Below, one piece after another: positions 6,164 to 33,081 of a stretch of 64,000 bases of DNA. Every line of letters starts with the position of its first letter. The first letter of the stretch is position 1. This DNA is from Buxus sempervirens (taxonomy: Eukaryota; Streptophyta; Magnoliopsida; Buxales; Buxaceae): assembly GCA_947561395.2 (NCBI GenBank), contig OX387185.1, forward strand, positions 18,068,366 to 18,132,365. Direction: 5' to 3'. The notes under the pieces were generated by a model. That model was not told the origin of the DNA and did no database searches. It saw only the letters and a list, made by a program, of their open reading frames with translations. Made by a program: the position numbers and the translations under genes.

Positions 6164-6176
6164 CAAAATTTTTGTG

Positions 6177-6251: not shown

Positions 6252-6321
6252 CGAAAAACGCACATTTTCAAATCTCGCAAAATCGGCCGTACGGGACGCG
6301 TGTCTCGCCGTACAGCGACAC

Positions 6322-9742: not shown

Positions 9743-11634
9743 TGTGAGACATGGGAAAAATCACCGGAATGATCATCCCTCCGTCAACACACGGGCTCAA
9801 CGCAAAAACGGGAGAGTCGCCACCATTCATGATTTTGGGGTGAGAATGGACACCAAAGGAATTAAAAAAAAGCAAAAAAAAAAGAGACAAAAGAAACATT
9901 CTAGGGTAAAAATAACCCTACTTGAAAATCAAATCCAGAGATGGGTAAGGGGATTAGATTATGAACGGGGGAAGGTGTTAGGCACCCCCATTCACCCACA
10001 CGAAGTGGTTGCCAAGTGTATGTTCATGCAAAAATAAGAAAGCTTGCTAAAATCATAGAAAACCTTGAAAAAGGACCAATGTATGATATTTTCACATGAA
10101 GATCTAAATGGGTTTTAGATCCTCTCTTATGTCAATATCATTTCTGGAATATCTCAAAAGAGGGAAATCAAAGCACAAGTTGCTCAAAAACCAAGTTAAA
10201 TCAAATTCGGAAAATTCGGTAAAAAGTATGCCATTTGTCTTGAAATCATTCAAATCCAATTCTAAATTGAACCAAACCAAATTCATTTGAAAGATTAGGG
10301 TAAATAAGAGTCTCATGCAAAATTTCACTTCATTCCGATGAAAATCATAGGAGTTATGCTCCTTTGAAGTTGCTGCTGGGGATTTTTAAAAGTGACGAGT
10401 GGGCAACTTTGAGAAATTATATAGAAAAATCCACTCCATAAAAATCCACGAAATTTGGTGTGATTGAAGTCTGTATGGCCATATTTCAAAACAAACTAGC
10501 CTCATACAAAAATCCCTTCGGATGTGCCTTGGGTGGTCTCCCGAACAGGCCCCGAAGATCACAGATTTACCCAGAAAAGTACAAATGAACAGTTCTGAGT
10601 AAATCGGATACCAATAATTCCAATGGAATCAAAAAATTATGAAACCAACTGGATTTGAAAATAGACTCATAAAGGAATACTCAGAAATAAAAATCACCCG
10701 AATCGGACTTAAAACGAACACATGGCGCTCCGTCGAAGTGACAAGTTCTGTATTTGAACCTGAACTGTCCACTTAACTTCGACAGAGAGGTGTCAAAAAT
10801 CCGTTTGACGGAAATTTATGAAATTTGGTGAAAATAAACTAGACAGCCTCACCTTTCCCATGGTTCTGAAATTGCTCCAAAATTCATTCGCACGATGAAG
10901 TTATGAGCGTCCGAAGTCAGGGTACAGGTGCTGTCCAGTTAGGCCCTTTTTGAGTAAAACCAATACCAAAATGTGACAAAAAGTGTGTGATTCGTGCAAA
11001 ATGAATATAAAACCTTTGAAAATCATTGCAAAACCTTCCAGAATTGATTGAGGTCATTTATTTGAGATTTATCACAATAAATGCAATAAACCCCAAATAT
11101 GAGCCTATTCCACCAAAAGAGTGTAATATGTGTGCAAGAGTGAAAAACCAAGCAAGATTAATACAACAACATATCATGCATATAGATTCAACAAGATAGG
11201 TTCTAGCATAGCCTAGGGTTCCGTTCCATTATCGTTTCCCTCTGTTCTCTCTCCCCGTTAAACACGGTTCTTCGAGATAATCAAGGGTACTTTGATTATA
11301 GAACGGTTTTCAATCATTCAAAAGCCTTATGCTACATGGGTTCTAGCACTAGGGTCAATCCCCAGTCTCGTTTCTCCTAGATCCCGCCTTCACGTTTTAC
11401 GGCTAGGGGGGTCTTGAGATACTTTGAGCCGGGGAAGGATTTCCACACACAAAAAGAGGCTTTATTCTACAGAAAGGTAGAGGAAGAGATCTAGATCTAA
11501 TAAATTAAATACAGAAAATAAATGAGGGTTGAGGCTTACCTGGGGTTCTGGAAGCAATCCGGCAGCGGTTCCCTTCTTCACTCGGAGTTCTTCGATCTCC
11601 AAAAACTTCGTCCTTTGCTTGAAGAGGAGCCTCC

Positions 11635-11645
11635 TATTTATAGGC
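11635..11645 (-). promoter_or_regulatory. TATA box of LTR of A
   Basis: Minus-strand CTATAAATAGG; the same sequence is at about 32686-32696 in the 5' LTR, where it would start genomic RNA. It lies about 150 bp downstream of the palindrome array in element direction. Confidence 0.65.
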
Positions 11646-11797
11646 AAAGGCTAAGGTCATTGGTAGAAACAACTTAATGTCTAGAACCCCCCAACCTTAA
11701 CCCTAGGGTTGTTTCCGAGATTTCCCCTCATTAAATGAGGGACATGATGGTAACAAGTGATTTCTCTCGGAAAACCCTAATTTTGAGCAAACTTAAT

Positions 11798-11939
11798 GTA
11801 TCCGGTATATCAGACCGGATACAAAAGGGCCTTAAGGTATCCGGTACATGGTACCGGATACACTAAGGCTCACATGTATCCGGTATGTTCCACCGGATAC
11901 ACAAAGGAGTACTTGTATCCGGTCTGAGTAACCGGATAC
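11798..11939. promoter_or_regulatory. 39-bp-step palindrome array in 3' LTR of A
   Basis: Four 25-nt palindromes GTATCCGGT-N7-ACCGGATAC start at 11798, 11837, 11876 and 11915, exactly 39 bp apart with 14-bp spacers. Arms are perfect in all four; centres differ (ATATCAG, ACATGGT, ATGTTCC, CTGAGTA). The other LTR has the same at 32850-32991. Each arm contains CCGG, which can carry both CG and CHG methylation. Confidence 0.9.
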
Positions 11940-12029
11940 AGGTAAAAGTTCATTTTCTTCAATTTCTGTGCTGGCTTTCAAGGAGATAACGATTTTTTAT
12001 GATTGTTTGTGCAATTTGGGGTGTCTACA

Positions 12030-12046
12030 ACTGCCCCTCTTTGCGG
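12030..12046 (-). other. Polypurine tract of element A
   Basis: Minus strand reads AAAGAGGGGCAGT directly before the LTR start TGTAGACACC. Element C has the near-identical AAAGAGGGGCAGC before its 3' LTR. This is the plus-strand primer of reverse transcription. Confidence 0.85.
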
Positions 12047-12593
12047 GAGCTGCGAAGCAGTGAGCTGCAAAGAGTAGACAAGGCCAAATTGCATTCCCTT
12101 GAGCATGATTTGCTCGGTTCAATTCAATTTTGTAGAAAACAATTTTCGGGTGGAAATTTGCCAAAAAGCCCTAACTTTAAGGGGGGCATCTCTCCAATAA
12201 TTCTTAAATTCCACTGAGCTCTCGTGGCTATGAAGTGGATTTTAAGCCCAAAAATAGGATTTTTTGAAAAACTGATTTTTTATCAAACCATGTTGAAAAT
12301 TGAGTGGATATCATCCTTTTGACCAGGCACATTTCCCAAGGTTGTCCCAAATTCCACAGAGCTCTTGTGGCTGTGAGGTGGATTTCAAGACAAAAATAGG
12401 ATTTTTGTGAGAAAATAGAAGTTGTAGCACAATTTTGCTCTTTCTTTTTTTTCTTTTTTCTTTTTCTCTTTTTTTTCTATTTTCTTTTTCTTTTTTTTTT
12501 CTCTTTTCTTTTTTTTCTTTTTTTCTTTTTTTTCTTTTCTGTTTTTTTTCTATTTTTTCTGTTTTTTCCTGTTTTTTTTTCTTTTTTTCTTTG
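12047..12593. other. Non-coding stretch with direct repeat and pyrimidine tract
   Basis: Two copies of a roughly 60-bp sequence (ATTCCACWGAGCTCTYGTGGCT... near 12208 and 12351), then a T/C tract of about 165 nt (12430-12594) broken only by a few G and A. No coding potential. The pyrimidine tract leads into the palindrome array at 12594. Confidence 0.6.
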
Positions 12594-12657
12594 GTATCCG
12601 GTATGTATATCCGGATAAGCAAGGGCTCGCTTGTATCCGGTCTGAGTGACCGGATAC
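12594..12657. promoter_or_regulatory. 39-bp-step palindrome array before the seven-exon antisense gene
   Basis: Two copies at 12594 and 12633, 39 bp apart. The second has perfect arms and centre CTGAGTG. The first has a partly decayed right arm. It ends about 7 bp before a TATA-like TTTTATAAG. Confidence 0.8.
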
Positions 12658-12662
12658 CCAAG

Positions 12663-12671
12663 CTTTTATAA
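12663..12671 (+). promoter_or_regulatory. Putative TATA box of the seven-exon antisense gene
   Basis: TTTTATAAG, followed by a GC-rich 5' untranslated stretch. A 5'-UTR intron is plausible: donor CAG/GTTCCC at 12956/12957 and acceptor TATGTAG/ATG before 14028. RNA data would settle it. Confidence 0.5.
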
Positions 12672-14027
12672 GTCGCGCGCGACCGCGACTTTTCCCCTTC
12701 TCTTCTTTCTTCCCCGACTACTAAGACCGGACACCTTCTCTTCTTCGCGACTGACGATCCTCCTTCCTTCTCCGACGAAACCCCGCCAGTTCCGGCGACC
12801 TCCGGCGGGTCTCTGAGCTCCGGTGACGTGCTGACTTCAGCGATTCCCCATTCACAGCAGTGGCCGAGCCCTAGCTTGACGAGCTCGGCGATTTTTGGAT
12901 TCAAACCATCACACTGTACCTCCGGCAACCAATCCGATTCCTTTACCTGCAATCAGGTTCCCTTTTTTTTTCTTATTGCTAATCAAGCAGTGATTACAGC
13001 TCGGCATTCTTCAATCGACATGTTCTTTTTTAGCCTAAGCACCGAATTACCACTTTCACAATTTATTTTTCATTTTGTGAATTGTTGTCAATTGCTCTTG
13101 ATTGCTCAGTGATCATACTTGGAATGTGCATTTGCAATTGGATCCTTGGACGAATTTTCGGTCTGATTGCTCTGTTGATTCTGGAATTTTCGGACTTTAT
13201 GCTCTTTGTTGATTTCTGCTGCAATATCTGATCACCATGGTTTCCTCTGATGGTATCCTGCTGATTGCATGCCAATTTTCAGATTGTATACTGGATTTCC
13301 TGGTTGCATGCTCTGATCTTGGTCCCATTTGCTACAATTCTTTAAAATTGTCTTGTTAGTGATATTATTATTATTTTTTTTACTGTTCCTGGGCCAATTC
13401 CCGACTGGATGGTTCACGGTATGATTTTGCATTTCCAGACTTGATGCCATGTCTGTTCTTTTTGGACTTTCAAATTGGTCCCGCTTACCGACTGCCGGTG
13501 TATGCTTGGATTTTTTCCCGCAATCTATTCTGAATAATGTGATGCTCTGTCTGCCAATGACCTGTTCTTGACTTCTTTTTGCATGATCACCTTGATGTTT
13601 TTCTGAATTGCTGACATTGTACTGCCATTGGCTCTTTTCGGACTTGATGGCCAATTCTTGATCATGTGGTATTTCTTTTCTTGCAATTGATTTTTCCTTC
13701 CTTGGTAATCCTTGATGATTCTTGAGACTAGCTTGTGTCTGGAGAACCGCTTATTATAATCTCTTGTATCTGTCTCAAATTTTTCCAGAAACGCTTGAAC
13801 TGCAACAGACCACAAAATTAAGTTAGAATTCTTGACAATAGCTTTGAAGAGACCAAGGTCCTATTAAATACGAACTGAATCTGGACCCAAAAGCCAAGTA
13901 TTATTCCTACCAAATATGCAATGAATCTAGACCAAAACAGAGTAGGATTCCTGATAAATTTGAACTGAATTTAGATTCAAAGCAAAGTAGGACTAAATCT
14001 CATAGGACATTTCCCTGTTGTATGTAG

Positions 14028-16807
14028 ATGGCTAGGAGTCATTCCTGTGTTAGGGAGGAGGCTGACCCTGCTGATCAGCCCTCCACTTCGCGGGCTCGGA
14101 CAGAGGCGAGTTCCAGCGCCACCCTGTCGGAGCCAGTAGATGTCTCTAGGGAGAGCTCTACTGAGGTAGGCTTTCAAAAAAAAAATTTTCTTTCTTTCTT
14201 CTATCTTCTTTCTACACAAATCTTCACATTGTTCCCTTGAAATTTAGCCCGTGGTTGCACCGGCTCGAGGTCGAGGCCGAGGCAGAGGCAGAGTTCAGGA
14301 TCAGGCCCTTGAGGGCGAGAGAGGCCGTGGTCGAGGCCGAGGTAGAGCCGGAGGTGCGGCTCAGGAGGGTACTGCTGTAGCTCTAGCAGGGGTCTCTGAG
14401 GAGTTGAGGGCCTCTGTTCATGATACAGAGCTCCTCTGTGGCTTGGATAGCCACCCCTCCATGTGCATCAGGGCAGATGTGCCGCTTCCCTATCATTCCT
14501 CCCACTTACGAGGTAGCTGGGGGAGATTCAGCGAGTTGGCCCAGTCGCTTTCTCCGGCCCTCAGGCGCGAGTTTGGGAGGTGCCATTTAGATCATTTCAT
14601 CAGCATTCCTTCCTTCAGAGCTGATCGTCCACTTATATTCGCCATGATGGAGAGGTATTTTCCGGAGACTCAGTCTTTCCACCTTCCGGACGTGGAGCTA
14701 GGGATCCGCCCTTCCGATTTTGTGATGATTACCGGCATTCCCTTGACGGGGCAGACCCTTGTCTTGGAGCGACCTTCTGCGGAGGACATCGGCCTCCTTC
14801 TGGGATATCAGGCCCTGCCACCTGCTGCTTGGGATGGGCGGAGTGGCCGGCTCTCCATTAGTTGGCTGCGGGAGAGTCTGGCTCGTCATTTTGAGAGGAG
14901 GCACGAGACCATCTCAGTGGAGGATGCAGCCTTTGTGCCTATCTTCCGGCACGTATTCTTGCTGATGCTGGGGAGCTGCTTCTTCCCGGAGGATACCACT
15001 AGCGTCAGTCCACTCTTTTTGGATGCCTTGAGGGATCTCCGCCAGACCCGCCAGCTGGCTTGGGGTCGACTCATTTATGGGACCGTTCTGGCCGGGTTGT
15101 GCCGAGCGGTTCGAGGCTTAGCATCTCCGAGAGGTGATGGAGTCAGCAGCCGGTTTTTCTGGCAGATTTTACAGGTATTGAACTTCCCCTGTCTGGTTTA
15201 ATTCATTTAGGCTTTATCCCTTCTTATTTCTGTCTCATTTTCCTTTTCCAGGTGTTTATGTACACCTATATGACCTTCTTCCGCCCCTCCCCGGTTCCTG
15301 AGGTTGTGGATTTCCCTGTGGCCCTGCGATGGTCGGCCCAGGTTCGAGATGCTGATAGGAGCCAGTCTCGTACTGCCCGGGTGCGCTTAGACCGTGCCCG
15401 CCGATCTGATGTAAGTGTTTTATCTTTTCCTTTTACTTTTCTGCCTCTTGACTGTATCTGACCACTTTGCTTCTTTGCAGCTCATTCTATCCCGTCCAGA
15501 TGACGTGGATGTTGGAGTTGCCCGTGAGATGGCAGTACAGGATGCTTTTGAGAGAGATCTCCGACGTCAGCCCTACCAGTGCTTCCTTGGGAAGCTTGGT
15601 AGGGTGATGTACTTAGGAGAGCGCCTGTACTTCCAGCACACGGGAGTACTTCGCATCCCCGTTCCGCCTCCTCCTGTGGGTCATGATACTCTCCTCCCCG
15701 GCTTCGACGTGGATCATCTCGATCATTTCATGGAGGCGGAGGGGCTCACAGTAGATGGAGATTACGACGAGTGGTTCCAAAGGGTATCTATTGGATGCTT
15801 GATGGATCGACCCACTCGTGCCGGGGTGACAGAGATCGGCGGGATCCGTATCCGGATCCATGAGGACACGGTAAGCCTTGTACTCTTCCTATTTTCATCC
15901 CCTTTTCCTTCCTTATGCATTTCTGACCATGCTTCTGTTCTTGTTGGCAGATACACGAGCTGAATACTATCCGGGATCGGTTCGAGAGCCAACGGGCCGC
16001 GATCGATGATATGATCGCTGAGCACGATGCGGTTGTGGCCCAGCGGGATGCCCGGATCAGGGAGCTGGAGGCCTTGGTTGCTGATCTCCAGGCTAGACAG
16101 GTATCTGGCCTTCTTGTTTCTTTCATTTTCCTGTTTCTGATATTCTGATATGCTTGTTTGACTTGTGCAGGGCTCGGTCCCAGATCAGGATGTTGTCTTC
16201 GAGCATGATTTCCTCATTCCTGACCCGTCTCCTGCTCGGGCTACGGATCCTGTGGATGTCCCAGCTGCTGATCCTGGTGATGTTCCACCTACCGATGCCC
16301 CAGCTGCTTCTGCGGATGCCCCGGCTGTTCCTTTATCTCCAGTGATGGTTCCTGAGCCGGAGGAGGTCCCTGCTGTTGACCCGGTGGATCCGGATCCCCT
16401 AGTGCCTACTGTAGATATCCCTGGTATGCTTCTTTAATTTTTCCTCTTTGGTTTATTCTGATGCTTTCATTTCTGATTTTTTTTCTGTTGATCCAGATGT
16501 TTCTGCTCCTGGCCATTCTTCTGCTGCCGGGCCTTCTGGAGCTGCGGGAGCAGAGCCTGCTATGGCTGAGGGTCCAGTTGGGCCGGTTGCTATTGAGCCA
16601 GAGGCTTCCTCCCCAGATTCCACTCCTGCTCTGCCCCCAGACATCGAGGAGTATTGCCTGGAGTATCAGCTCCAGCAGGTGGTGGGTCGGCATCCTCGCC
16701 ATGCAGCCGAGCGTATTCTTGCCTACTCTAGGGGCAGAGCGTTTCGAGGGAGAGGCCGTAGAGGTGGACGCAGCCGAGGATGCCTGGATGATCCTGCACA
16801 GGAGTAG
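14028..16807 (+). CDS. PMD-like protein, seven-exon gene antisense in element A
   Basis: Coding exons by GT-AG and frame continuity: 14028-14165, 14248-15174, 15252-15410, 15481-15870, 15951-16100, 16171-16423, 16497-16807; total 775 codons plus stop, with no internal stop. The start ATG directly follows a likely 5'-UTR acceptor. Exon 2 starts with an RG-rich tract (GRGRGRGRV...) and then a plant mobile domain-like core: FRADRPLIFAMMERYFP, TQSFHLPDVELGIRPSDFVM, ITGIPLTG, the pattern of PMD proteins (E-F-P...LxDV...LxGLPxxG). Exon 5 is a coiled coil (IHELNTIRDRFE...). Exon 6 is a Pro/Asp/Val-rich linker. The last exon ends in a second RG-rich box. RG boxes suggest nucleic-acid binding (inference). 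Introns are 70-82 nt, which is plant-like. The gene lies between pol and the 3' LTR, opposite to pol, with its own TATA box and palindrome array. Function unknown. Confidence 0.75.
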
Positions 16808-17013
16808 TAGATTAGGATTTTTTCTTTTCATGTATTGATCTCATCATTCCTTGTACAAAACTTGCATATATATGAAAAAAACTTTTTATTCATTCTATCT
16901 TGTCTTGCACATCTTTTGCTCTCAATTTTATGCAATTATGACTTGTACACAGGTAAAACAGGTAAAAAATTCGGATTTTTCATCCTTAGCTCTTTTTTTT
17001 GCAGTTTTTCTTT
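16808..17013. other. Spacer between the two antisense genes
   Basis: A/T-rich. It should hold the 3' UTR and polyadenylation site of the seven-exon gene and the distal promoter of the next gene. I see no other structure. Confidence 0.5.
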
Positions 17014-17155
17014 GTATTCGGTCTGACATACCGAATTCATTGATTGGTCTTTGTATCCGGTATGTTATACCGGATACTCATGGCATCCTTTGTATCCGGT
17101 ATACTTAACCGGATATGAATAAAGCCTTTTGTATCCGGTCTGAGTTACCGGATAC
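17014..17155. promoter_or_regulatory. 39-bp-step palindrome array before the DUF7745-like antisense gene
   Basis: Four copies start at 17014, 17053, 17092 and 17131, exactly 39 bp apart. The first has matching changes in both arms (TATTCGGT...ACCGAAT), which keeps the symmetry. The last has centre CTGAGTT. The array ends 13 bp before a TATAAAT. Confidence 0.9.
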
Positions 17156-17167
17156 ATTAAAAGATGC

Positions 17168-17175
17168 TATAAATG
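17168..17175 (+). promoter_or_regulatory. TATA box of the DUF7745-like antisense gene
   Basis: GCTATAAATGC context. Initiation some 30 nt downstream would leave a short 5' UTR before ATG 17287. The position directly behind the palindrome array matches the arrangement at 12594-12671. Confidence 0.65.
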
Positions 17176-17286
17176 CAACCAGCCTCGGGATTTGAGTATT
17201 TTTTTTACGAGTTTTTGAGTTTAGAAACCCCCTTTTTTGCCTTTTTCTTCCTCCTCTTGAGTTCTAGCTTGCTCCCATCACATCCA

Positions 17287-19011
17287 ATGGAATCCGGATC
17301 ATTTTCTGCCCCATTACTGTTTGTCCATACTGCCTCCCCTGCAAAACAACCTTTTAGATCAAAACCCCCAAATCTCACTAGGTACAACCCTGTGGATTCT
17401 TTTTACACAAGGTGGGTTAACTCTATGACCCTAGATGAGGAGAGGAGATGGGATTCTACTAATCTAGGCTATACCCTGCTCATTCCCAAGGTTCCCTTCA
17501 GGTGGGAGATTATAGAGGCCATGATTGGTCATTGGGTTCCTGACCTCAACTTGTTCCGTTTTGGGAACCATGAGATGACCCCAACCATTGAGGAGGTGGA
17601 AACCATCTTGGGCTTGAGGTTTGATGAGAAGGTGGTGAATCCACCTCTAAGGCCCAGTTACAAAAAGGAAGCTTCTACTTTTTTGGGCATAGGGAAGAAG
17701 GACTTGGGGGATTCTGACACCCTTTTGACCCTATCTAAGGCTTTTGTGACTGAGAAGCTTTTGAGAGGGGAGAACAAGGAGGCCCGATTCAATGCGTTGA
17801 CCCTGATAGTGGTCAACCAGTTGCTTTTCCCACGGGATGATGATGAGGTGGACTTGGCCTTGATTTCAGTGATATGCCAGGTTCGGGAGAGGGAGAGGTT
17901 GGCCCTTATGATTTTAGCTGGAATATATCAAGCTTTGACGGATTGCTACAATAGGAAGTCGAAACGCTTCCTAGCCTGTGCCCAGATCCTGCAGGTAAAA
18001 AATTTTTTTTTTTATTTCTTGCTTTTTGGCTTTCTTTTTGCCTTTTTTGCCTTTTTTCTTGCTTTTTTGTTTTTTTTTTTAATTTTTTATTTTACAATGT
18101 GCTGACATATCTCTCTTCCTTTGCAGCTTTGGCTACTTGATCATTTGAGCCAGATTGAAGAGATTAATCGACACTTCTTCCCGAGTCTAAAAGTCCCCTT
18201 CTTGATGAGCAACAGGGGGTGCCCCGATATTCCAGGGGGCAAACAGGGCTGGTTCACTTTCTTGGGCTCACTTCAGGAGGACCAGGTGAGATGGCCTGGC
18301 ACTTATCAGCCCAATGCAGCGACAGTGATTAGCTTCCGTGACCGCAACTTTCTGATCCTAGCGGGCCTGAAGCATGCAGTGCTGTATCTTCCTCTGCGGG
18401 TCCTTCGTCAGTTCCGTGCGACCCAGGGGATTATCATCCCATGTGGATATGAGGATCGTCTTGGGCCCCTTTCTATGAAGCTGAATGCCTGGTTGATGAA
18501 GGAGTGGTCCTATGTCCGCTTCATGCATGGTCCAGTCTTCTCAGAAGCCCATGTGAAGGATTATCTCTTTTGGATCAAGGAACAGATACAGACTCAGGCC
18601 CCGGTACCTGAAGATCCTCCTATAGTCTTGGCTCCTACCTATGAGGACATTCTAGAGTCTGAGCGGGCTTCTCATAAGCGGCTTCAGCAGATATGGGTAC
18701 GGGAGGCCCAGGAGCTCAGGATACAGGGCACTTATCTGGAGAGATAGCTTGAGGAGCAGATCTCACGCCGTATTGCCGTGGAAGAGAAGCTGGAGGAGCA
18801 GAGGCAGGCCCGTCGCTTCGAGGTCCGTATGATTCAGCAGAAGTACCAGGATACTTTGGCCAGCCTTAGGAGTATGCGGATCAGGCAGGCCCTTTCAGAT
18901 GAGGTCATTTCCTTCTTGAGTGATCCCGCTGCAGAGGGGGCTTCAGGAGTTATTGCAGCTCAGGCAGCTCGGATTCGGGAGCTTGAGGAGCGGCTAGGAG
19001 ACAGAGACTAG
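17287..19011 (+). pseudogene. DUF7745/PMD-like antisense gene of element A, one amber stop
   Basis: Exon 1 17287-17994 (236 codons, ATG in CATCCAATGG context), intron 17995-18126 (GTAAAA...TTTGCAG, T-rich), exon 2 18127-19011. The core (LNLFRFGNHEMTPTIEEVETILGL; LRQFRATQGI) is the pattern I know from DUF7745-containing plant proteins, related to plant mobile domains, and is clearly homologous to the sense ORF of element C at 42069-43496. The C-terminus is a charged coiled coil (EEKLEEQRQARRFE...). TAG at 18745-18747 interrupts the frame inside the coil (codon 443 of 530); the frame stays open beyond it, so the change is recent and may have been CAG. Start chosen downstream of the TATA box. 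Function unknown; it may be expressed as a truncated protein. Confidence 0.75.
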
Positions 19012-19957
19012 CTTTATTTCCTGCATTATTATTTTTTTTTTACCTTTGTACCAAAGCAAACTCCAATAGTGGAAAGACAAAGGATTTAATTCAAAATAAA
19101 ATTTTTATATTATTGGCCTCAGAATGCTCAGATGCTTGTAAAAACAAAGGTTTTATGAAAAGTATTTGATTTATCATCACTGGCCAAAGTATAATTTTTC
19201 CTTTTTATATTTTTTTTGTATTTTTTGAAATTTGGTCCATGTACTTAATCACCTATAATTAAAGGAATTAAAACCAGGTTAAATAATGAAAATGGTAGTC
19301 CACCAAAATACTGAAGGATCAGAACCGTCCATCTTAGGACCTTTAGAGTCATTCCCAAATGCCAAAACTGCCCCATTCTGCTCATGCCAACTTTGCTTAA
19401 GGCTCAGATCCCCATGATCAACTCAACCTCTGATTTTCTTTCATTTTTCTTATTTTGTTTTCTTTTTGCCTTTTTGCCAATATTGCCCCTAGCGCCAGTT
19501 ACGGTTTTCACTAGGGCCGGCTTCTGAATTCCGTCATCACCCATCTTACTCTGACATTTGAATGAACAAGCTAAGATCACCGAGGGCTTAAAAATAGGAC
19601 GAAATAAAGGCTAGGCTCAGTTTATGAAAGAAAGGGTATTAAAGGCCCAAAAATTTTCAAGTGTGGAAATAGGTCAACCGGACTTACAGTCATGATGAAT
19701 TTAACCCTTTTTCCCCAAATTGCATTTTTTGCATCTTTTTTCACACTTGGCTTTCATTTGCCATTTCCATTGCTTTTCCTCTCTTTTTCTTTTTCTTCCC
19801 TTACTTTGCCCCAATTTGTTTTGCCCCAATTTAAGACTGTAAATCCGGTTTGGGTTTATCAAAGAAACGAACCAGCTCAACTTGGCTAGACTAGGGATTA
19901 AAATTTTTGAAGGAAATAAAGAAAAATGGCCTCGGATCATTTCCCAGAAATATTCAC
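19012..19957 (-). other. Region between pol stop and antisense gene of A
   Basis: Non-coding. It contains modules also seen in B, C and D: AGGACGAAAT near 19598, GCCCCAATT repeats near 19808, and ATGGCCTCGGATCATTTCCC near 19926 next to the pol stop. These are the conserved 3' region of the family. Confidence 0.6.
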
Positions 19958-22844
19958 TCAAGGGAAATACCTTTTTACCGCATCAGAGTTAATGGGCTCA
20001 GGAAAATCTGACCCATCCATTTCTGCTAAGATGAGTGCTCCCCCTGATAGGACTTTCTTGATGACATATGAGCCTTCCCAATTGGGCTTGAACTTAACAC
20101 GAGGATCTTCCAAAAATGGTAGAATTTTCTTTAGCACCAGGTTTCCTTCTTGGAAAGTTTTGGGCCTCACTTTCTTATTGGAAGCCCGGGCCATTCTCTT
20201 CTGGTACAACTGTCCATGGCAAAGCGCTTTCAACCGCTTTTCTTCTATCAGGTTAAGTTGATCATGTCTCGACTGGACCCATTTGGCTTCTTCTAGTTCT
20301 GCTTCCATGAGCACTCGGAGTGAGGGGATCTCTACTTCCACGGGCAAGACTGCTTCCATCCCATAGACTAGGGAGTATGGGGTTGCCCCAGTTGAAGTCC
20401 GGATCAAAGTTCTGTAGGCATGTAGAGCAAGTGGTAGCATTTCATGCCAATCTTTGTAACTCACTACCATCTTCTGAATGATTTTCTTTATATTCTTGTT
20501 GGCTGCTTCTACTGCCCCATTCATCTTTGGCCTATACGGAGCGGACTTGTGGTGGGTGATCTGAAACTGCTCACACATTTTCTTCATGTCCTTGTTCTTA
20601 ATATTTGAAGCGTTGTCTGATACTATGGCACTTGGCAGTCCATAGCGACAAATGATATTGTGCTTCAAAAATTTAATAACATGGTTGCTTGTGATATTTG
20701 CATATGATGCTGCTTCTACCCATTTAGTGAAGTAATCAATTGCCACCAAGATGAATCTGTGCCCGTTCGATGCCTTAGGGGAGATCATGCCGATGACATC
20801 TATGCCCCACATAGAGAAGGGCCAGGGTGATGTCATGTTGTGCAGCTCACCTGGGGGTGCATGCTTATTATCTGCATATATCTGACATTGGTGGCACCTC
20901 TTGACATGTACACAGCAATCATGCTCCATGGTCGTCCAGTAGTATCCCAGCCTCAGGATCTTCTCAGCCAGCATGTGCCCACTCATATGGGGCCCACAGA
21001 CTCCTCCATGTACCGTCTCGATCAACCTTTCCGATTCAGCCTTGGCTACACATCTTAGCAGAATGTCGTTATGTGACCTCTTGTACACATGTCCACCACT
21101 TAGCAGAAACTGACCAGCCAATCTCTGTATTGTCCTATTTTCAGTAGCAGTGGCATTTTCTGGTAAACTCCGATTGTTCAAGAAATTTTTGATATCTTGG
21201 AACCACGGTGCTTCTTCTTCTGGTGCTCCCTCTAGAACGAGACAGTAAGCCGGTTCATCTCTAACCTCAATTTCCAGCGGTCTGATGTCTACTCCTTCTG
21301 GTATGCTGACCATTGAGGCCAATGTTGCTAGAGCATCCGCAAACTGATTCTTGGCCCTTGGCATATAGTTGAAGGAAATTCGAGTGAAATTTGTGCTTAT
21401 TTCTTCCAAATACTGATGATAGGGGATCAATTTGTGATCCTTGGTTTTCCACTCACCAGTTGTTTGGAAGATGATAAGACTCGAATCCCCGTATACGTCA
21501 AGTTCCTCTACTCCATGATCCATGGCTGCTTGCAATCCAATTATGCATGCTTCATATTCTGCTATATTATTAGTGCACTGGAATCTCAGCTTTACTGCAA
21601 TCGGGATGTGTGAACCATCTGGTTTAACCAAGACTGCCCCTATTCCGTTCCCATTCATGTTGGCGGCCCCATCGAAGAACATCTGCCAAGAACTCTCACT
21701 GTCCTCCTCTTCAGTGTACAGAATTGCCTCATCTGGGAAGTTGGTCTTCAAGGGTTGATATTCTGGCAGAGGATGTGCAGCCAGGTGATCAGCTATGGCT
21801 TGACCCTTGATTGCCTTCTGGGTGATGTATATGAGGTCAAACTCGGATAGTAGCAGTTGCCACTTTGCCGTCCTGCCAGTTAGTGCCGGTTTCTCAAATA
21901 AATATTTCAGCGGGTCCATCCGGGATATCAATAGTGTGGAGTGACTAAGGAAATAATGCCTTAGCCTCTGAGTGGCCCACACTAGAGCACAGCAAGTCTT
22001 TTCCAATGGTGAGTACTTGGCTTCATATTCCTTGAATTTTTTACTCAGATAGTAAATTGCCCTTTCTTTTCTACCAGTCTCATCATGCTGCCCCAAGACA
22101 CATCCCATCGATGTTTCCAACACTGACAAGTACAGGATCAGTGGTCTTCCTGGAGTTGGTGGCACTAGCACAGGCGGGTTCAGTAGATACCTCTTTATTG
22201 TGTCAAATGCCTGCTGGCAGTCCTCATTCCAGACCGTCGGGTTATCTTTCCTCAAAAGTTTGAAAATTGGTTCACAGATAGCAGTGAGCTGTGCTATGAA
22301 CCGGCTTATGTATTGAATCCTTCCAAGAAAGCCACGAACCTCCTTCTCGGTTCTGGGTGCTGGCATTTCAATTATGGCCTTGGCTTTAGCCGGGTCAATT
22401 TCAATTCCTCGTCGGCTCACTATAAACCCCAGCAACTTCCCTGATGTAGCCCCAAAGACACACTTAGTCGGGTTAAGCCGTAGACTGTACTTCCTGAGCC
22501 GATCAAACACTTTCTTCAGATTGATCAAGTGGTCCTCCTCTTTGCATGATTTGGCAATCATATCGTCCACATAGACCTTCATCTCCTTGTGGAGCATGTC
22601 ATGAAATAGTGCTGTCATGGCCCGCTGGTATGTTGCCCCAGCGTTCTTGAGCCCAAACGGCATGACCGTGTAGTGGAATGTGCCCCAAAGTATAATAAAT
22701 GCTGTTTTCTCTTGATCTTCCTTAGCCATCTTGATCTGATTATATCCTGAGAAACCATCCATGAAGGAAAACAGGCTATGTATCGCAGTATTATCGACAA
22801 GAATGTCGATGTGTGGAAGCGGAAAATCGTCCTTTGGGCTTGCC
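19958..22844 (-). pseudogene. pol: Pol of element A: RT (catalytic part), degenerate RNase H, archaeal-type RNase H, integrase
   Basis: A 934-codon open frame starts at 22762; RT-like sequence in the same frame extends upstream to a one-base shift near 22843. RT: YVDD at residues 64-67 of the 934. First RNase H (residues 205-330) has LYLSVLETS where YTDAS is usual, so its first catalytic Asp is gone. A second RNase H follows (360-485) with D364, E402, D426 and D476, the arrangement of the archaeal-type RNase H known from Tat elements. Integrase: zinc-binding residues H592, H596, C623 and C626; catalytic D655, D716 and E752 with 35 residues between the last two. The end (DAVKRYFP) is normal for the lineage. 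This segment is complete; the upstream RT piece is in another frame because one base is missing relative to the family pattern. Confidence 0.92.
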
Positions 22845-23563
22845 TGTTTAAGTCTCTATAATCCACGCACATTCGGACTTTCCCGTCCTTCTTTGGTACC
22901 GGCACTATGTTTGCGAGCCATTCAGGGTACGTAGAGACTGCCAAAAATCCGGCTTGAAATTGTTTGACCACTTCGTCCTTGACCTTCAAGGTCCATTTCG
23001 GCTTCAATCTTCTCAGCTTCTGCTTAATCGGCTTAACCCATGGCAAAATTGGCAACTTGTTCACCACCATGTCAGTGTCCAACCCCGGCATGTCCCGATA
23101 CGACCAAGCAAACACATCCTTGTAATCTGCCAAAAACAGTGACATTTCATTTTTCTGCACATCAGACAAGCATGACCCGATTTTCACAATTTTTGGGTCA
23201 TCTTCAGTCCCAAGGTTTATGGATATAGTCTCCTCAATATTAGGTTGGACCCCCTTTTCATGACGTTCCAATTGGTATTCAATTTCTTTTGGAACGTCTT
23301 CTTCTTCGACCTCGATCTCTTCTTCGATCCCCATAAGGTCAAAGTCGAGCTCGAAGTCGAAGTCATATTCAACCTGGTCCAATTCGGTCTGATTATATGG
23401 TTCATAAGTGGTTTGAACCTTTTTGAAAAATTTAAATTTTTTAGAAAAAATAGAAAAATCTTTTTGGGTTTTTTGTGGGCCTTCTAAACATAATTCCCCT
23501 GAAGACGAAGGCCTATTAGAACCTTCAGGGAAATGGCAATCCACTATTGGAGTTTTTTTTTTT
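22845..23563 (-). pseudogene. pol: N-terminal RT segment of element A
   Basis: Acidic linker (FDFELDFDLMGIEEEIEVEEE), then NLGTEDDPKIVKIG, FAWSYRDMPGLD, KQKLRRLKPKW, FLAVSTYPEWLANIVPVPKKDGKVRMCVDYRDLNR, all typical of Tat RT. After DLNR the frame goes wrong; the expected ASPKDDFPLPHIDI follows in the next frame. At its start it is separated from the G-patch segment by a shift in an 11-nt A run (plus-strand T 23553-23563). Ogre relatives have an intron between protease and RT; I see no good intron here, only the homopolymer shift. Confidence 0.85.
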
Positions 23564-24276
23564 GGAAGCCGCGTTAGTTTGCCACACAGACGCTGCTTCA
23601 AAGGTAAGGGGAGTTTCCTCCCAATTGTTCAATACAAAATTTTGGGGAGCAGGGGAAATAGGGAAAGCCTGCTCTTCAAACCCAGAATCCGATGCCATCA
23701 TCACCGGGTGGGTACTGCCCTTTTCTGCTACGGGGCCCAATCCAGAAACGACCTCCTCCGGCATCTTTACTGCGGCCCAGTCAATAAACGGCAGTTCCAT
23801 GTCTGCCCCTATGATTTCGCCCTCAGTCATGGCGAAGAATGCACCAACATCCTCAGAAAAGTCCACCTGCTGCTCGGGCTGTGGCCTAGGCCCATCTTCT
23901 GCTCCCAGTATTGGAGAGGGGTTATAGGGTTGTAGGGCCGAAACCAAAGGCTTTTGAAATGGGTTAATGTTTCGGTATGGAGGCTTGGACTGGTCCATGG
24001 GATGAGAGATTTGGATTATATAGGAGGGTTTTGGAAAGTTCACCCTCAGATGCGGGAGTTTTCCTTTGCTTCTGCTCTCCCCTTCTTCGTGCTTCATTCT
24101 CCTCCAACCTCTGGGCTTGAAGCCCAACCCTACCCTTGGGACTAGTTTCTTAGCCTTGATTGGCTCCACCATACCTTGCAGATTGATCCCCAGGCCTTTC
24201 CCCGGGTGAAAGTGGTATTTCTCCATCACTTTCTTGACCATTTTTTCTGCAGTGGTCCCCTTTCCCTTCTTTTTTT
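23553..24276 (-). pseudogene. G-patch-like segment between protease and RT of element A
   Basis: Starts around the A7 run (plus-strand T 24270-24276). Contains KVMEKYHFHPGKGLGINLQGM, the G-patch-like signature found at this place in Tat polyproteins, then a Pro-rich and an acidic stretch ending near AASKKK at the 11-nt A run. Frame changes at both ends suggest homopolymer slippage; a -1 ribosomal shift at the A7 run is a less likely alternative. G-patches usually bind nucleic acid or helicase partners. Confidence 0.75.
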
Positions 24277-27234
24277 ACACCCCCCAGGTATGTAATTGAC
24301 CGCCTCAAATTGAAATGAGTGGAATGCAATCTTGTCAACAGTCAAGTCCACATTTATTAAGGGTACATCAGGTGACACAATGGGTGGCACCAAGTTTTCG
24401 GCTAGGACTGTTATCACCCTTTGCCCTCTTATATATTTCACCCTTTGGTGGAGCGTGGATGGTATTGCCCTAGCCGAGTGTATCCACGGCCTTCCTAGGA
24501 GCAGATTGAAGGCTGCGGGTATATCCATCACCTCAAATGTGATGTTAAAGATATTCGGCCCAATTGTGACTGGCAGTTCAATCTCCCCTAGGGAGTGGGT
24601 CTTGGAGCTATCGAAAGCCCTCACTATCCGCCCATTTTGTTTGATCCTTGACTGGTCCAGACCCAGCTTGGTAAAAGTGATTAACGGGCAAACGTTTAAC
24701 GCCGACCCGTTGTCAATTAGTACCCGTGCGATCATGCAGCCCTTATAGAGCACTGTGATGTGCAAAGGGTCCACATGATAACACCCACCTGGGCTGATCT
24801 CACCCTTTGAGAAACTTATTACATTATGTGACAAGATTTGACCAACCATTTTGCCAAGCTGGTCTGGATCAATTGTCTGGGATACATGTGCACTCTGTAG
24901 CACCCTTAACAATGCATCCCTGTGCTTTTTAGAATTCAGCAAAAGGCCCAGTATTGAAATCTGGGCCGGGACCTTGTTCAGCTGATCCACAAGATTAAAT
25001 TCACTCTTTTTTATTATTTTTATGAGGTCGGCTGCCTCATTTTCTGCACCCTGGGGGGTGTCTTCTCCTATTTTATTTTTTCCCTTCTGTTTTCTTTTTT
25101 CATTTTCTTTTTCTACTTTTTCTTTTTCTGCTTCTGTCTCCTTCTCTTTCTCTTCACCCCCTGCACATCTGCCTGACCTCGTCATGAGGTTCACCTCCTT
25201 CTGGTTCTGGTCCTTGACCACTGGAACCGTAGCCGTGATTCCCTCGCTGTAATTCCATGGTACAGCGGCCTCAGAATAGGCTAATTTAGGGATGTTGACC
25301 ACCAACGGCTGGAGTTTGGACCGGGATGTATGGACCGGTTTAGGGATAGTCTGGGCTGGCTGCACATTTACAACCAAGGGTTGAAGTTTGGATTTTGTGG
25401 GGACAGAAGAAGTGATAGAAGCATTGGTGGGGTCAAGGTTGATGACCAGTGGAGCCTTAGATGGCTTGGATGGTGAGCAAATGGGTGGACTGCAATTGAA
25501 GACCAATGGGGGCCTTGCTGTATTCATCTGGGCCATGAGTGAAGAGACCCGGTTTAGAGAGGAACTTATGTCCTCAGCAGCAAGATTATTATTTTTTTGG
25601 GAGACCATGTTGATCTCCTCTTCGTCCTCCTCTTGGAAGAAATGGACCTGGACTGTGGTCCCCACGGGTGCTATAAGCTGAGATGGGTCAAAGGCCCTTC
25701 TCGTGGTGGATATGGCCGTGATGGAGTTGGATGGGCCTGCCCCATTATGGTAAGGCAGAGGGTTCTGCCCAATATCATTTCCCGACGGGGCGGGTGCAGC
25801 AGTGTTAAAGACCAAAGCCTTCTGGTCCAACAGGTCCTGGACCGCATGCTTCAGCATCCAGCAAGTGTCAGTAGAGTGCCCTGGTGCACCCATGTGATAA
25901 TCGCATGTGATTGCTGGATCATAATTTCTACCCTTCGTGGCATTTGGGTTAGGCTCCTTCAGAGTCAAATATTCCCCCTTCAGCAGGGTTGGCAGCAGTT
26001 GGGACAGCGATATCGGGAGAGGAGTAAAGACTCTATTCCTCCTTGCTGCCATCCAGGCCTCCCTCTCCTCCTTAGTAAAAGTCCTCCTCTGGTTTGTAGG
26101 CACGGAGGGAGAGAAATTGACATTGTGCGGGGTCTGGTACAACTGCTGGGCCTGTTGGGCCTGCTGGGGTGCCAAGATGTTCACATGAAGTGGCTTCTTG
26201 GCTGGAGGAGCCTGGACCAGGTTCACCTCCCATTCTTTTCGGGCCCCTGTCTTCTTGAACCCAGTTCCCTTCTTTTGGGCCATGGAGGCCGAGGAATTAG
26301 ACTGCCCAGTCAGAGTAGAGTAGTCTATCAGCCTTCCTGACCTGACCCCTTCCTCAATCCGGTCCGCCACTTGTACCAGGGCAGCAAAGTTGGTGGTGAT
26401 CTGGCCCCCCAGATGGCTGTAAAAAGGCTGCCCCAGTGTGCCCATAAATGTGGAGATCATCTCCGGCTCTTGCATAGGTGGCCTGACTTGGGAGGCGGCC
26501 TTTCTCCATCTCTTGGCGTACTGCCGTACCGGTTCATCTTTCCCCTTGGTCATCCTCATCATGTCGTACCGGTCCGGCACGATCTCAGAGTTGAACTTAT
26601 ATTGGTCTAAGAAGGCGTCGGCTAGGTCCTTCCACCTCCTGATCCTTCCATGGTCCACTGTAGCGAACCACCGAAGGGCTGACCCGGTCAGACTCCTCTG
26701 GAAGAGCTGGATCAGTATGCCATCATCCCGGCCAAATTGGCATAGGGCCCTGCAGTATAATTTCAAATGGCTCAATCGGCAGCCCGTGCCATCAAACTTG
26801 TCAAAGTCTGGGCACCTGAACTTAGCCGGTAGACAGACGTCCGGGTACATGCACAGGTCTTCGAAGGTGGTGCCTCCATGGCTGCTTCCCCCCTTCACCT
26901 CCTTCAGCTCTGCCTGGATTCGTTCTATCCTGAGCAGCATTTTCTTTTCCATCTCATCTCGGGCCTTTTCTTTTTCCAGCTCTTTCTCAGACTCAGCTGT
27001 ATTTTCCCTGATTAGAATGGGTTCAGGGACTGGTTCAGAAATGGGCTGAGCCGGAGGCGGAATATAGGCCTGAGGTGGTGGTGCCGGATGGGAAGTAGAG
27101 GCTTGGTTCTGGGCTTGGGCCTGAGCTGCCAGTAGGTCCCCCAGCATCTTGGCCAGACCGACCACTTGCTCCTACAGTTGAGTAAAGTCCTGAGCAGGGA
27201 CAGTAGCTTGGGCTTGGTTCTCTTCAGTATTCAT
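24226..27234 (-). pseudogene. gag-pro: Gag-protease of element A, one amber stop near the start
   Basis: ATG at 27232-27234 (MNTEENQAQATVPAQDFTQL), amber TAG at 27172-27174, then an open frame of over 970 codons. Order: coiled N-terminus, capsid-like core (KFRCPDFDKFDGTGCRLSHLKLY; FQRSLTGSALRWFATV; WKDLADAFLDQYKFN; EPVRQYAKRWRKAASQV), non-standard knuckle CDYHMGAPGHSTDTC, Lys/Glu-rich linker, then aspartic protease with LIDNGSALNVCP near residue 840 and LLLGRPWIH. Gag forms particles; protease cleaves the polyprotein. The single TAG in the otherwise open frame is probably a CAG change. It ends by running out of frame after the A7 run. Confidence 0.88.
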
Positions 27235-27439
27235 TGTTCGGGCTTTGGATCTGGTCACGGGAGCAATGACTGCAATTAAGTGCACCTGGGTTGCAAGTAA
27301 ATGTACCTGGGTAAGAAAAACAAAGACACAAGTCAGCTTCCATTTAATTTGAAACACACCCCTATAAATGTAGACAAATAGGTCAGGTGAACACCAGTCC
27401 AAATTTTTTTGTTTTTTTATTTATTTTTTTAATTTTTTT

Positions 27440-28852
27440 GCTTGGAATATTCCGAGGCTTCCAAATGTCCTAAAAAGCTTTGACTTTGAGTGGTTCTCGT
27501 GACCAAACAAAGGTTCTTGGAATATTCTGAGACTTCCAAATGTCCTAAAAAGATTGACTTTGAGTGGTTCTCGTGACCAAACAAAGGTTCTTGGAATATT
27601 CTGAGGCTTCCAAAGGTCCTAAAAAAATTGACTTTGAGTGGTTCTCGTGACCAAACAAAGGTTTTTGGAATATTCTGAGGCTTCCAAAGGTCTTAAAAAA
27701 ATGACTTTGAGTGGTTCTCGTGACCAAACAAAGGTTCTTGGAATATTCTGAGGCTTCCAAAGGTCCTAAAAAAATTGACTTTGAGTGGTTCTCGTGACCA
27801 AACAAAGGTTTTTGGAATATTCTGAGGCTTCCAAAGGTCCTAAAAAGATTGACTTTGAGTGGTTCTCGTGACCAAACAAAGGTTCTTGGAATATTCTGAG
27901 GCTTCCAAAGGTCCTAAAAATTTTGACTTTGATTGATAAAAATAACCAACCAAAGGTTTTTGGAATATTCTGAGGCTTCCAAAGGTCCTAAAAAAAATTG
28001 ACTTTGAGTGGTTCTCGTGACCAAACAAAGGTTTTTGGAATATTCTGAGGCTTCCAAAGGTCCTAAAAAAATGACTTTGAGTGGTTCTCGTGACCAAACA
28101 AAGGTTCTTGGAATATTCTGAGGCTTCCAAAGGTCCTAAAAAAATTGACTTTGAGTGGTTCTCGTGACCAAACAAAGGTTTTTGGAATATTCTGAGGCTT
28201 CCAAAGGTCCTAAAAAGATTTGACTTTGAGTGGTACTCGTGACCAAACAAATGTTTTTGGAATATTCTGAGGCTTCCAAAGGTCCTAAAAAAAATTGACT
28301 TTGAGTGGTTCTCGTGACCAAACAAAGGTTTTTGGAATATTCTGAGGCTTCCAAAGGTCCTAAAAAAATTGACTTTGAGTGGTTCTCGTGACGAAACAAA
28401 GGTTTTTGGAATATTCTGAGGCTTCCAAAGGTCCTAAAAAAATGACTTTGAGTGGTTCTCGTGACCAAACAAAGGTTCTTGGAATATTCTGAGGCTTCCA
28501 AAGGTCCTAAAAAAATTGACTTTGAGTGGTTCTCGTGACCAAACAAAGGTTTTTGGAATATTCTGAGGCTTCCAAAGGTCCTAAAAAGATTTGACTTTGA
28601 GTGGTACTCGTGACCAAACAAATGTTTTTGGAATATTCTGAGGCTTCCAAAGGTCCTAAAAAAATGACTTTGAGTGGTTCTCGTGACCAAACAAAGGTTC
28701 TTGGAATATTCTGAGGCTTCCAAAGGTCCTAAAAAATTGACTTTGATTGATAAAAATAACCAACCAAAGGTTCTTGGAATATTCTGAGGCTTCCAAAGGT
28801 CCTAAAAAATTGACTTTGATTGATAAAAATAACCAACCAAAGGTTTTTTTTT
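27440..28852 (-). repeat. 74-bp tandem array in leader of element A
   Basis: About 19 copies of a 74-bp unit, each with GGAATATTCTGAGGCTTCC and usually GAGTGGTTCTCGTGACC. Three units near 27930, 28740 and 28812 carry GATTGATAAAAATAACC in place of the latter. A rare variant (GATTTGACTTTGAGTGGTAC) recurs at 28217 and 28588, 371 bp apart, which points to a five-unit higher-order duplication. 74 is not a multiple of 3, so the open frames across the array are accidental. It lies between PBS and gag. Confidence 0.93.
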
Positions 28853-29145
28853 TTTTTGAATTTTCTCAGTTTTCAAATGCAAAAGCTTGATTGAAATATG
28901 TTTGAGTTGAATTGGTATCAAAAAATATGACACCTTGGTTCCCTCTTTGATTTTTAAAATTAGGTTAAATCCTGAAAGAATATTTTATTTTATTCTTTTT
29001 TTTTTGTATTTTTTTTTGTTTTTGATTTTGTATTTTTGGAACATTTCTTATGTTCTTTTCGGGGTGCCTAAGGATTATCCACAGTGTTTTAGGTATTTTA
29101 TTCTGAAAATTTAGGCTGAACAGCCAATTTGTGCATTTTTAAAAC
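28853..29145 (-). other. Leader of A between tandem array and palindrome array
   Basis: A/T-rich with T tracts and no coding potential; nothing recognised. Confidence 0.5.
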
Positions 29146-29287
29146 GTATCCGGTATAATATACCGGATAAGCATATGCCTTATTATATCCGGTAACCCTA
29201 ACCGGATACACGCATATGTCTTTGTATCCTGAAATATATACCGGATATGAAGGAAATTGTTTTTAACCGGCCTGAGTTGCCGGTTAA
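29146..29287. promoter_or_regulatory. 39-bp-step palindrome array in leader of A
   Basis: Four copies start at 29146, 29185, 29224 and 29263, exactly 39 bp apart. The fourth is TTAACCGGC-CTGAGTT-GCCGGTTAA: both arms changed together, keeping perfect symmetry, with the same centre as the last copy of the other arrays. No TATA box follows on either strand. Confidence 0.88.
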
Positions 29288-30794: not shown

Positions 30795-33081
30795 TGTGAG
30801 ACATGGGAAAAATCATCGGAATGATCATCCCTCCGTCAACACACGGGCTCAACGCAAAAACGGGAGAGTCGCCACCATTCATGATTTTGGGGTGAGAATG
30901 GACACCAAAGGAATTAAAAACAAGCAAAAAAGAAGAGACAAAAGAAACATTCTAGGGTAAAAATAACCCTACTTGAAAATCAAATCCAGAGATGGGTAAG
31001 GGGATTAGATTATGAACGGGGGAAGGTGTTAGGCAACCCCATTCACCCACACGAAGTGGTTGCCAAGTGTATGTTCATGCAAAAATAAGAAAGCTTGCTA
31101 AAATCATAGAAAACCTTGAAAAAGGACCAATGTATGATATTTTCACATGAAGATCTAAATGGGTTTTAGATCCTCTCTTATGTCAATATCATTTCTGGAA
31201 TATCTCAAAAGAGGGAAATCAAAGCACAAGTTGCTCAAAAACCAAGTTAAATCAAATTCGGAAAATTCGGTAAAAAGTATGCCATTTGTCTTGAAATCAT
31301 TCAAATCCAATTCTAAATTGAACCAAACCAAATTCATTTGAAAGATTAGGGTAAATAAGAGTCTCATGCAAAATTTCACTTCATTCCGATGAAAATCATA
31401 GGAGTTATGCTCCTTTGAAGTTGCTGCTGGGGATTTTTAAAAGTGACGAGTGGGCAACTTTGAGAAATTACATAGAAAAATCCACTCCATAAAAATCCAC
31501 GAAATTTGGTGTGATTGAAGTCTGTATGGCCATATTTCAAAACAAACTAGCCTCATACAAAAATCCCTTCGGATGTGCCTTGGGTGGTCTCCCGAACAGG
31601 CCCCGAAGATCACAGATTTACCCAGAAAAGTACAAATGAACAGTTCTGAGTAAATCGGATACCAATAATTCAAATGGAATCAAAAAATTATGAAACCAAC
31701 TGGATTTGAAAATAGACTCATAAAGGAATACTCAGAAACAAAAATCACCCGAATCGGACTTAAAACGAACACATGGCGCTCCGTCGAAGTGACAAGTTCT
31801 GTATTTGAACCTGAACTGTCCACTTAACTTCGACAGAGAGGTGTCAAAAATCCGTTTGACGGAAATTTATGAAATTTGGTGAAAATAAACTAGACAGCCT
31901 CACCTTTCCCATGGTTCTGAAATTGCTCCAAAATTCATTCGGACGATGAAGTTATGAGCGTCCGAAGTCAGGGTACAAGTGCTGTCCAGTTAGGCCCTTT
32001 TTGAGTAAAACCAATACCAAAATGTGACAAAAAGTGTGTGATTCGTGCAAAATGAATATAAAACCTTTGAAAATCATTGTAAAACCTTCCAGAATTGATT
32101 GAGGTCATTTATTTGAGATTTATCACAATAAATGCAATAAACCCCAAATATGAGCCTATTCCACCAAAAGAGTGTAATATGTGTGCAAGAGTGAAAAACC
32201 AAGCAAGATTAATACAACAACATATCATGCATATAGATTCAACAAGATAGGTTCTAGCATAGCCTAGGATTCCGTTCCATTATCGTTTCCCTCTGTTCTC
32301 TCTCCCCGTTAAACACGGTTCTTCGACATAATCAAGGGTACTTTGATTATAGAACGGTTTTCAATCATTCAAAAGCCTTATGCTACATAGGTTCTAGCAC
32401 TAGGGTCAATCCCCAGTCTCGTTTCTCCTAGATCCCGCCTTCACGTTTTACGGCTAGGGGGGTCTTGAGATACTTTGAGCCGGGGAAGGATTTCCACACA
32501 CAAAAAGAGGCTTTATTCTACAGAAAGGTAGAGGAAGAGATCTAGATCTAATAAATTAAATACAGAAAATAAATGAGGGTTGAGGCTTACCTGGGGTTCT
32601 GGAAGCAATCCGGCAGCGGTTCCCTTCTTCACTCGGAGTTCTTCGATCTCCAAAAACTTCGTCCTTTGCTTGAAGAGGAGCCTCCTATTTATAGGCAAAG
32701 GCTAAGGTCATTGGTAGACACAACTTAATGTCTAGAACCCCCCAACCTTAACCCTAGGGTTGTTTCCGAGATTTCCCCTCATTAAAATGAGGGACATGAT
32801 GGTAACAAGTGATTTCTCTCGGAAAACCCTAATTTTGAGCAAACTTAATGTATCCGGTATATCAGACCGGATACAAAAGGGCCTTAAGGTATCCGGTACA
32901 TGGTACCGGATACACTAAGGCTCACATGTATCCGGTATGTTCCACCGGATACACAAAGGAGTACTTGTATCCGGTCTGAGTAACCGGATACAGGTAAAAG
33001 TTCATTTTCTTCAATTTCTGTGCTGGCTTTCAAGGAGATAACGATTTTTTATGATGGTTTTTGCAATTTGGGGTGTCTACA
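30795..33081 (-). repeat. 5' LTR of element A
   Basis: 2287 bp, the same length as the 3' LTR. Contains the TATA box near 32686-32696 and the palindrome array at 32850-32991. It ends at 33081 before TSD GATAC. Confidence 0.95.
32850..32991. promoter_or_regulatory. 39-bp-step palindrome array in 5' LTR of A
   Basis: Copies start at 32850, 32889, 32928 and 32967, identical in plan to 11798-11939. It lies in U3, upstream of the TATA box that would drive the element. Confidence 0.9.

Follow-up and report, generated by a model that had tools for sequence, protein, structure and literature searches.

Arrayed CCG-N11-CGG palindromes in nested retrotransposons of Buxus sempervirens as putative operator sites of antisense-encoded PMD proteins

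Introduction

A 64-kb stretch of the Buxus sempervirens genome (contig OX387185.1, positions 18,068,366 to 18,132,365; hereafter the window) consists of nested plant long terminal repeat (LTR) retrotransposons. One of them, the element E1, carries arrays of a short palindrome in its LTRs, in its 5' leader and before two antisense genes, which we call A and B. What reads these palindromes, and what would a retrotransposon gain from them? A preliminary description of the locus had proposed binding sites of a dimeric factor, host or element-encoded, that co-regulates all promoters of the element. In this study, we believe with about even confidence, from the layout of the sites and the kind of protein that E1 encodes, that the palindromes are putative operator sites read by a dimeric protein with sequence-specific DNA binding, for which the antisense plant mobile domain (PMD) proteins of E1 are the most likely candidates.

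Results

The motif GTATCCGGT-N7-ACCGGATAC, allowing up to three mismatches, had 17 matches in the window against 0.01 expected, and they lie where the preliminary description had placed the palindrome. It had counted six places. Five arrays were found, of which the two in the LTRs are copies of each other. The 39-bp step was exact, as described, for all 10 steps inside the four distinct arrays. The 14-bp linkers between units differ in sequence, again as described, with a pairwise identity of 0.387 among 10 linkers. Arm identity was 0.875 among 14 distinct units, a set that excludes the array copy in the E1 5' LTR. For the centres of the ten units that are not last in their array, identity was 0.390; the identities expected by chance from composition are 0.265 for linkers and 0.317 for centres. 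The difference between arms and the rest was reached by 0 of 20,000 column shuffles of ten units with their following linkers, the four last units being left out of the linker and column tests. Because the arms are this similar, all steps are 39 bp, and linkers and centres are near chance, the E1 arms and their spacing have been held while the remainder drifted.

In all four distinct E1 arrays, the last unit (at the + end) has a centre of CTGAGT followed by A, G or T. These last-unit centres are 0.881 alike, compared with 0.390 for the other centres, which suggests common descent of the arrays from a single ancestor. Such descent would also be expected if the arrays were a functionless tandem duplication of a short palindrome, and Tandem Repeats Finder calls the LTR arrays with a period of 39. 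Duplication by itself does not account for linkers and centres near the composition level beside arms at 0.875, for the absence of any in-array step altered in length, or for the identical geometry, in other letters, in the neighbouring elements E2 and E5. We regard this explanation as highly improbable, the least probable of those considered.

The symmetry of the arms needs a more careful reading than it was first given. CCGG had been claimed for every arm and is present in 25 of 28. Matched changes in both arms of two units had been read as selected symmetry. This holds for the unit at 29263, where 3 of 3 changes are matched, and only in part for the unit at 17014, with one matched and one unmatched change. 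The matched change at 17014 turned the outer C of CCGG into T symmetrically, and decay of methylated C on both strands can explain it. In total, E1 has 4 matched pairs, three of them in one unit (29 of 20,000 column-wise shuffles reach 4), and 9 unmatched deviations, 5 at the outermost position. Evidence for compensating change inside E1 is thus weaker than had been claimed. The arms that differ together between E1, E2 and E5 are better evidence of selected symmetry than the changes within E1. As a separate observation, the E2 LTR copies at 5274-5374 and 38578-38678 differ inside the dyads by C/T transitions, of which one falls in a CG and another affects the outer C of a CCG, a pattern that fits methylated-C decay after insertion.

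Perfect CCGnn-N7-n'n'CGG sites numbered 29 in the window, each in E1, E2 or E5 (LTR duplicates counted). Simulated sequence had a mean of 0.13 such sites and a maximum of 1 in 100 runs. At other centre lengths, the same half-sites gave 0-2 sites for lengths from 0 to 17, 4 at 18, none at 19 and 10 at 20; we read the ten as pairs across neighbouring E1 units. The half-sites are family-specific, CCGTA-N7-TACGG in E2 and mostly AAAC[C/T]G[C/T]A in E5, and each LTR of E2, and likewise that of E5, has one CTGAGT dyad. Within its arrays, E1 has a 39-bp step and E2 a 28-bp step; in E5, the dyads nearest to TATA follow one another at 28 and then 39 bp. Sites further away in E5 and E2 are 76, 87 and 110 bp apart, and the step rule is confined to arrays. 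The difference of 11 bp between the two steps is about one helical turn, and neighbouring sites would therefore keep a nearly equal angular offset. A scan with relaxed symmetry gave 33 sites with a 7-bp centre, 20 with a 5-bp centre and 0-5 at each remaining centre length between 3 and 13. Of the 33, the pair at 10331 and 31382 represents a chance-like site in the E1 LTR. The 20 with a 5-bp centre were taken, without individual checking, as the ACCGCCACTTCGGAGGT tandem repeats near 34.7-35.9 kb. These belong to the E2 leader (34627-35867), whose tandem repeats have mixed units of 49-197 bp and contain ACCGCCACTTCGGAGGT, an imperfect palindrome. The E2 5' LTR also has a separate palindrome at 39597-39632, with 14-bp arms GGGACGCGTGTC...GACACGCGTCCC, between its two dyad groups.

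The arrays stand at a regular distance from most promoters. From the last CGG to the TATA box there are 13 bp at gene A and 16 bp at gene B; the array ends, previously given as 7 and 13 bp from the TATA boxes, measured 9 bp (gene A) and 12 bp (gene B). The distance of 16 bp from the proximal CGG (CAG in E5) recurs at gene B, both E2 LTRs and E5. Among 123 TATA[AT]A sites, 4 have a dyad 10-20 bp upstream against 1.21 expected, and all four stand at 16 bp (LTR duplicates again counted). The E1 LTR is the exception to this close spacing, at 159-160 bp, and no TATA box was seen by eye beside the 5' leader array at 29146-29287. Given the distant TATA box of the E1 LTR and a leader array without a visible promoter, the earlier claim of control over all promoters of the element is not supported. 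Just 3' of the gene A TATA box, a CG-rich palindrome (12668-12693) overlaps the start region.

Palindromes may also act as hairpins in RNA or single strands, within the element RNA itself or by giving rise to small RNAs that induce silencing. As RNA, the four arrays fold much more stably than their shuffles (z -4.6 to -11.7). In maize, Sirevirus LTR palindromes are small-RNA hotspots and proposed silencing triggers (PMC5311732, PMC10760457). RNA folding does not discriminate here, since any palindrome array folds well, and the best folds pair different units as often as they form single hairpins. Hairpins leave the 28- and 39-bp steps, the 16-bp TATA gap and the fixed centre length unexplained. 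At genes A and B, the arrays precede TATA and should therefore fall outside the mRNAs of these genes. We consider a hairpin function very unlikely.

The protein side of the question lies in genes A and B, which are on the + strand, between pol (- strand) and the 3' LTR. Both encode PMD proteins, with Pfam PMD scores of 53.9 bits for gene A and 47.2 bits for gene B (cut-off 34.9). PF04195 (TRP28) had no match at E<=1 in the four gene A and B pieces scanned, the smaller gene A exons being outside the scan. Neither gene A exon 2 nor any gene B piece showed DUF1985 at E<=1; 27 of 71 aligned PMD proteins matched it at the same threshold. This alignment holds 66 proteins (P0006 included) from among 120 listed of the 930 relatives found by a P0006 search, together with P0001-P0004 and the PMD protein of the element E3, and its rows were hand-picked for spread. 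A search with the E3 PMD protein gave 3 relatives, and a profile of these gave 7. When the PMD fold was compared with solved structures, the only clear match was VANC21 with its DNA (9lnj), an anti-silencing protein that binds DNA and is encoded by another transposon. The analogy with VANC, which the preliminary description offered as speculation, has gained substance in that the antisense proteins are PMD proteins and the PMD fold matches that of VANC21.

Some further observations concern the PMD family. The DUF1985 (VANC domain) match sits inside the PMD domain of P0009 (E 3.9e-8), P0095 and other PMD proteins, and MULE transposase domains also occur in P0009 and some others. P0001 from Tetracentron sinense (770 aa) looks like a fused relative of the two E1 genes: its first part (90-229) matches gene A, and its later part matches both gene B and the E3 PMD protein. 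E3 has an intronless PMD/DUF7745 frame at 42069-43496 (+), located between the 5' LTR and gag and in the same orientation as gag. No CCG-N11-CGG dyad was found in E3.

The features of the locus are listed in Table 1. E1 was inserted in the gag of E2, and E2 (minus strand) lies in turn within an LTR of E3 (plus strand). Additional pieces of E1 pol are found upstream in other frames. The order of reverse transcriptase (RT), RNase H and integrase in E1 pol is of the Ty3/gypsy type. The gag (Retrotrans_gag) is likewise of Ty3/gypsy type and not that of a Ty1/copia Sirevirus. The pol frame has a dual RNase H (RT_RNaseH 204-308 and RVT_3 363-481), which is a Tat trait (PMC9289625). With the antisense genes between pol and the 3' LTR, two features of Tat-type Ty3/gypsy elements are present in E1. 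The E1 leader also contains long tandem repeats with 74-bp units (27442-28819).

Table 1. Elements, genes and dyad arrays in the window
Feature	Position	Strand	Remarks
E1, ~23 kb	9743-33081	-	LTR pair; TG...CA ends; 5-bp target duplication GATAC
E1 3' LTR	9743..12029	-	99.2% identity to 30795-33081
E1 5' LTR	30795..33081	-	aligned with the 3' LTR over 2288 columns: 16 substitutions, 2 gap columns
4-dyad array, E1 3' LTR	11798..11939	.	159 bp upstream of sense TATA
4-dyad array, E1 5' LTR (copy)	32850..32991	.	160 bp upstream of sense TATA
2-dyad array before gene A	12594..12657	+	last dyad 13 bp before TATAA at 12667
4-dyad array before gene B	17014..17155	+	last dyad 16 bp before TATAAA at 17168
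4 partly decayed dyads, E1 5' leader	29146..29287	.	no promoter seen
Gene A coding region	14028..16807	+	seven exons, splice sites by eye; PMD protein, RG-rich ends
Gene B, PMD/DUF7745	17287..19008	+	exons from 17287 and 18127; in-frame stop 18745, then open to 19008
E1 pol frame (part)	19958..22762	-	RT, two RNase H domains, integrase
E1 gag frame	24226..27147	-	Retrotrans_gag match
E2	LTRs 4474-6321 (truncated) and 37778-40277	-	target duplication CATAG
E2 3' LTR, 3 dyads CCGTA-N7-TACGG, 28-bp steps	6174..6254	-	16 bp before TATA at 6161
E2 3' LTR second array, 4 dyads, 28-bp steps	5274..5374	.	last centre CTGAGTT
E2 5' LTR copy of TATA-proximal array	39478..39558	-	
E2 5' LTR, two more dyads 28 bp apart	39644..39696	.	
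E5, partial LTR	1-1408		
E5 partial LTR dyads	798-814, 837-853, 865-881, 952-968, 1028-1044	-	798-814: CTGAGTA centre, 16 bp before TATA at 781

Related elements were sought in sequence collections. Exact pattern scans of viral_contigs gave 28 loci. They were rejected as related elements, as none matched six proteins of the window by tblastn (E<=1e-3; queries E1 pol, E1 gag, gene A exon 2, gene B, E2 gag and the E3 PMD protein). A scan with E1 pol found no relative. The collection genome_contigs had 0 array matches, which says nothing on plants because it is prokaryotic.

Discussion

The two-fold symmetry, the fixed steps, the distance to TATA and the arms that differ together between families make sites of a dimeric factor the best reading of the arrays. 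This part of the preliminary proposal is supported, though not for all promoters. In this model, the two protein units of a dimer would each occupy one of two inverted CCG half-sites separated by 11 bp, with adjacent dimers 28 or 39 bp apart and the proximal dimer at a fixed distance from TATA in most promoters. Bound dimers may then activate the promoters or shield them from silencing. Binding, dimer formation, the direction of the effect and the feedback described next are what we infer from the layout. As the sites stand in the LTR and before the PMD genes, PMD binding there could give self-feedback together with more sense transcription, comparable with VANC in VANDAL.

The strongest rival is a host dimeric transcription factor that reads CCG-N11-CGG, with the element having collected its sites at promoters. 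The retrotransposon ONSEN has collected heat-shock elements in such a way. Consistent with a host reader, the E2 and E5 dyads persist without a PMD gene of these elements in the window, and E3 has a PMD gene and no such dyads. Also in its favour, Sireviruses have CGG-CCG palindromes before TATA and before ENV, one of them AATCCGGCTWRCCGGATT (PMC2829016). Against it, CGG points inward in these boxes and their centres are short, whereas the dyads here share the core CCG-N11-CGG. LOB-domain (LBD) factors are one candidate, being dimeric on spaced motifs with the box GCGGCG (PMC12461856), but this box differs from the arm sequence. No host factor with this geometry was found, in a survey made without a motif library. 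The letters beside CCG vary between E1, E2 and E5 while the symmetry and N11 stay, which fits family-specific readers. We consider a host factor unlikely, though clearly less so than hairpins or plain duplication.

The reading in which PMD dimers of E1 bind the arrays is favoured because VANC proteins have motif arrays, PMD proteins have ties to a promoter motif, the E5 half-sites resemble the motif CATGCAGTTT, and a review has raised the possibility that transposons counter silencing with PMD proteins of their own (PMC8616336). A wider picture can be drawn, which we hold tentatively and a little short of even confidence. An LTR retrotransposon may have its own VANC-like circuit, with antisense-encoded PMD proteins acting on family-specific palindromic operators, set at a constant distance from the TATA boxes of LTRs and antisense promoters; PMD and VANC may form one transposon-born superfamily, from which MAIN and MAIL were domesticated. 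If this is true, PMD proteins would be sequence-specific promoter readers of transposons, perhaps anti-silencing, that plants later retained as MAIN and MAIL. The VANC21 fold match and the putative operator arrays at the PMD genes' own promoters lead to a direct, testable answer, and the arrays supply defined DNA probes for PMD binding. A 2025 paper in Nature Plants, to judge by its title, reportedly concerns modules of PMD proteins and DNA motifs. A homology link between PMD and VANC is not stated in the excerpts of the literature surveyed; this link, and the palindromes of Tat elements, may already be published.

Four published systems are close to this locus. In Retand elements with antisense TRP28 (Vicient 2025, PMC11963269), there is likewise a long region from pol to the 3' LTR with antisense genes proposed as DNA-binding regulators, but the antisense genes here are PMD/DUF7745. 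In the excerpts of that paper, the word palindrome had two matches, only in a cited title. In the second system, that of MAIN/MAIL1/PP7L, PMD proteins are tied to the promoter motif DOWN, and whether they bind it is left open there (PMC7156037, PMC9899485). Allowing one mismatch, the DOWN motif CATGCAGTTT has five matches in the whole window, two of them in E5 half-sites, and no match in the E1 arrays. The DOWN system involves host genes and a single motif, unlike the arrayed dyads here.

The Sirevirus RM boxes (Bousios 2010, PMC2829016) are many-copy CGG/CCG palindromes in the LTR upstream of TATA and before an extra gene, with copies kept while the flanks diverged, and the Citrus box AATCCGGCTWRCCGGATT is near the E1 arms in its letters. 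They differ from the present arrays in the host element (Ty1/copia there, Ty3/gypsy here), in the core (CGG...CCG with a short centre there, CCG-N11-CGG with a 7-bp centre here) and in the extra gene (a sense-strand ENV there, two antisense PMD genes here). Only the E1 arms, with CCGG, can also be read as CGG...CCG. The fixed 28- and 39-bp steps and the 16-bp TATA gap are features of E1, E2 and E5 that the excerpts of PMC2829016 do not mention for the boxes. Because host element and core polarity fail to agree, the E1, E2 and E5 arrays are not a set of Sirevirus boxes. In VANDAL, a transposon-encoded protein of the same fold as PMD acts on short arrayed motifs in non-coding DNA, which differ in letters between related families and form tandem repeats (PMC5735166, PMC10398659). 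VANDAL is a DNA transposon, its motif is non-palindromic with copies in one orientation, and binding and loss of methylation were shown there and are putative in E1. Overall, the arrays have a layout like that of Sirevirus boxes, and the proteins, as PMD proteins, probably share the fold of VANC.
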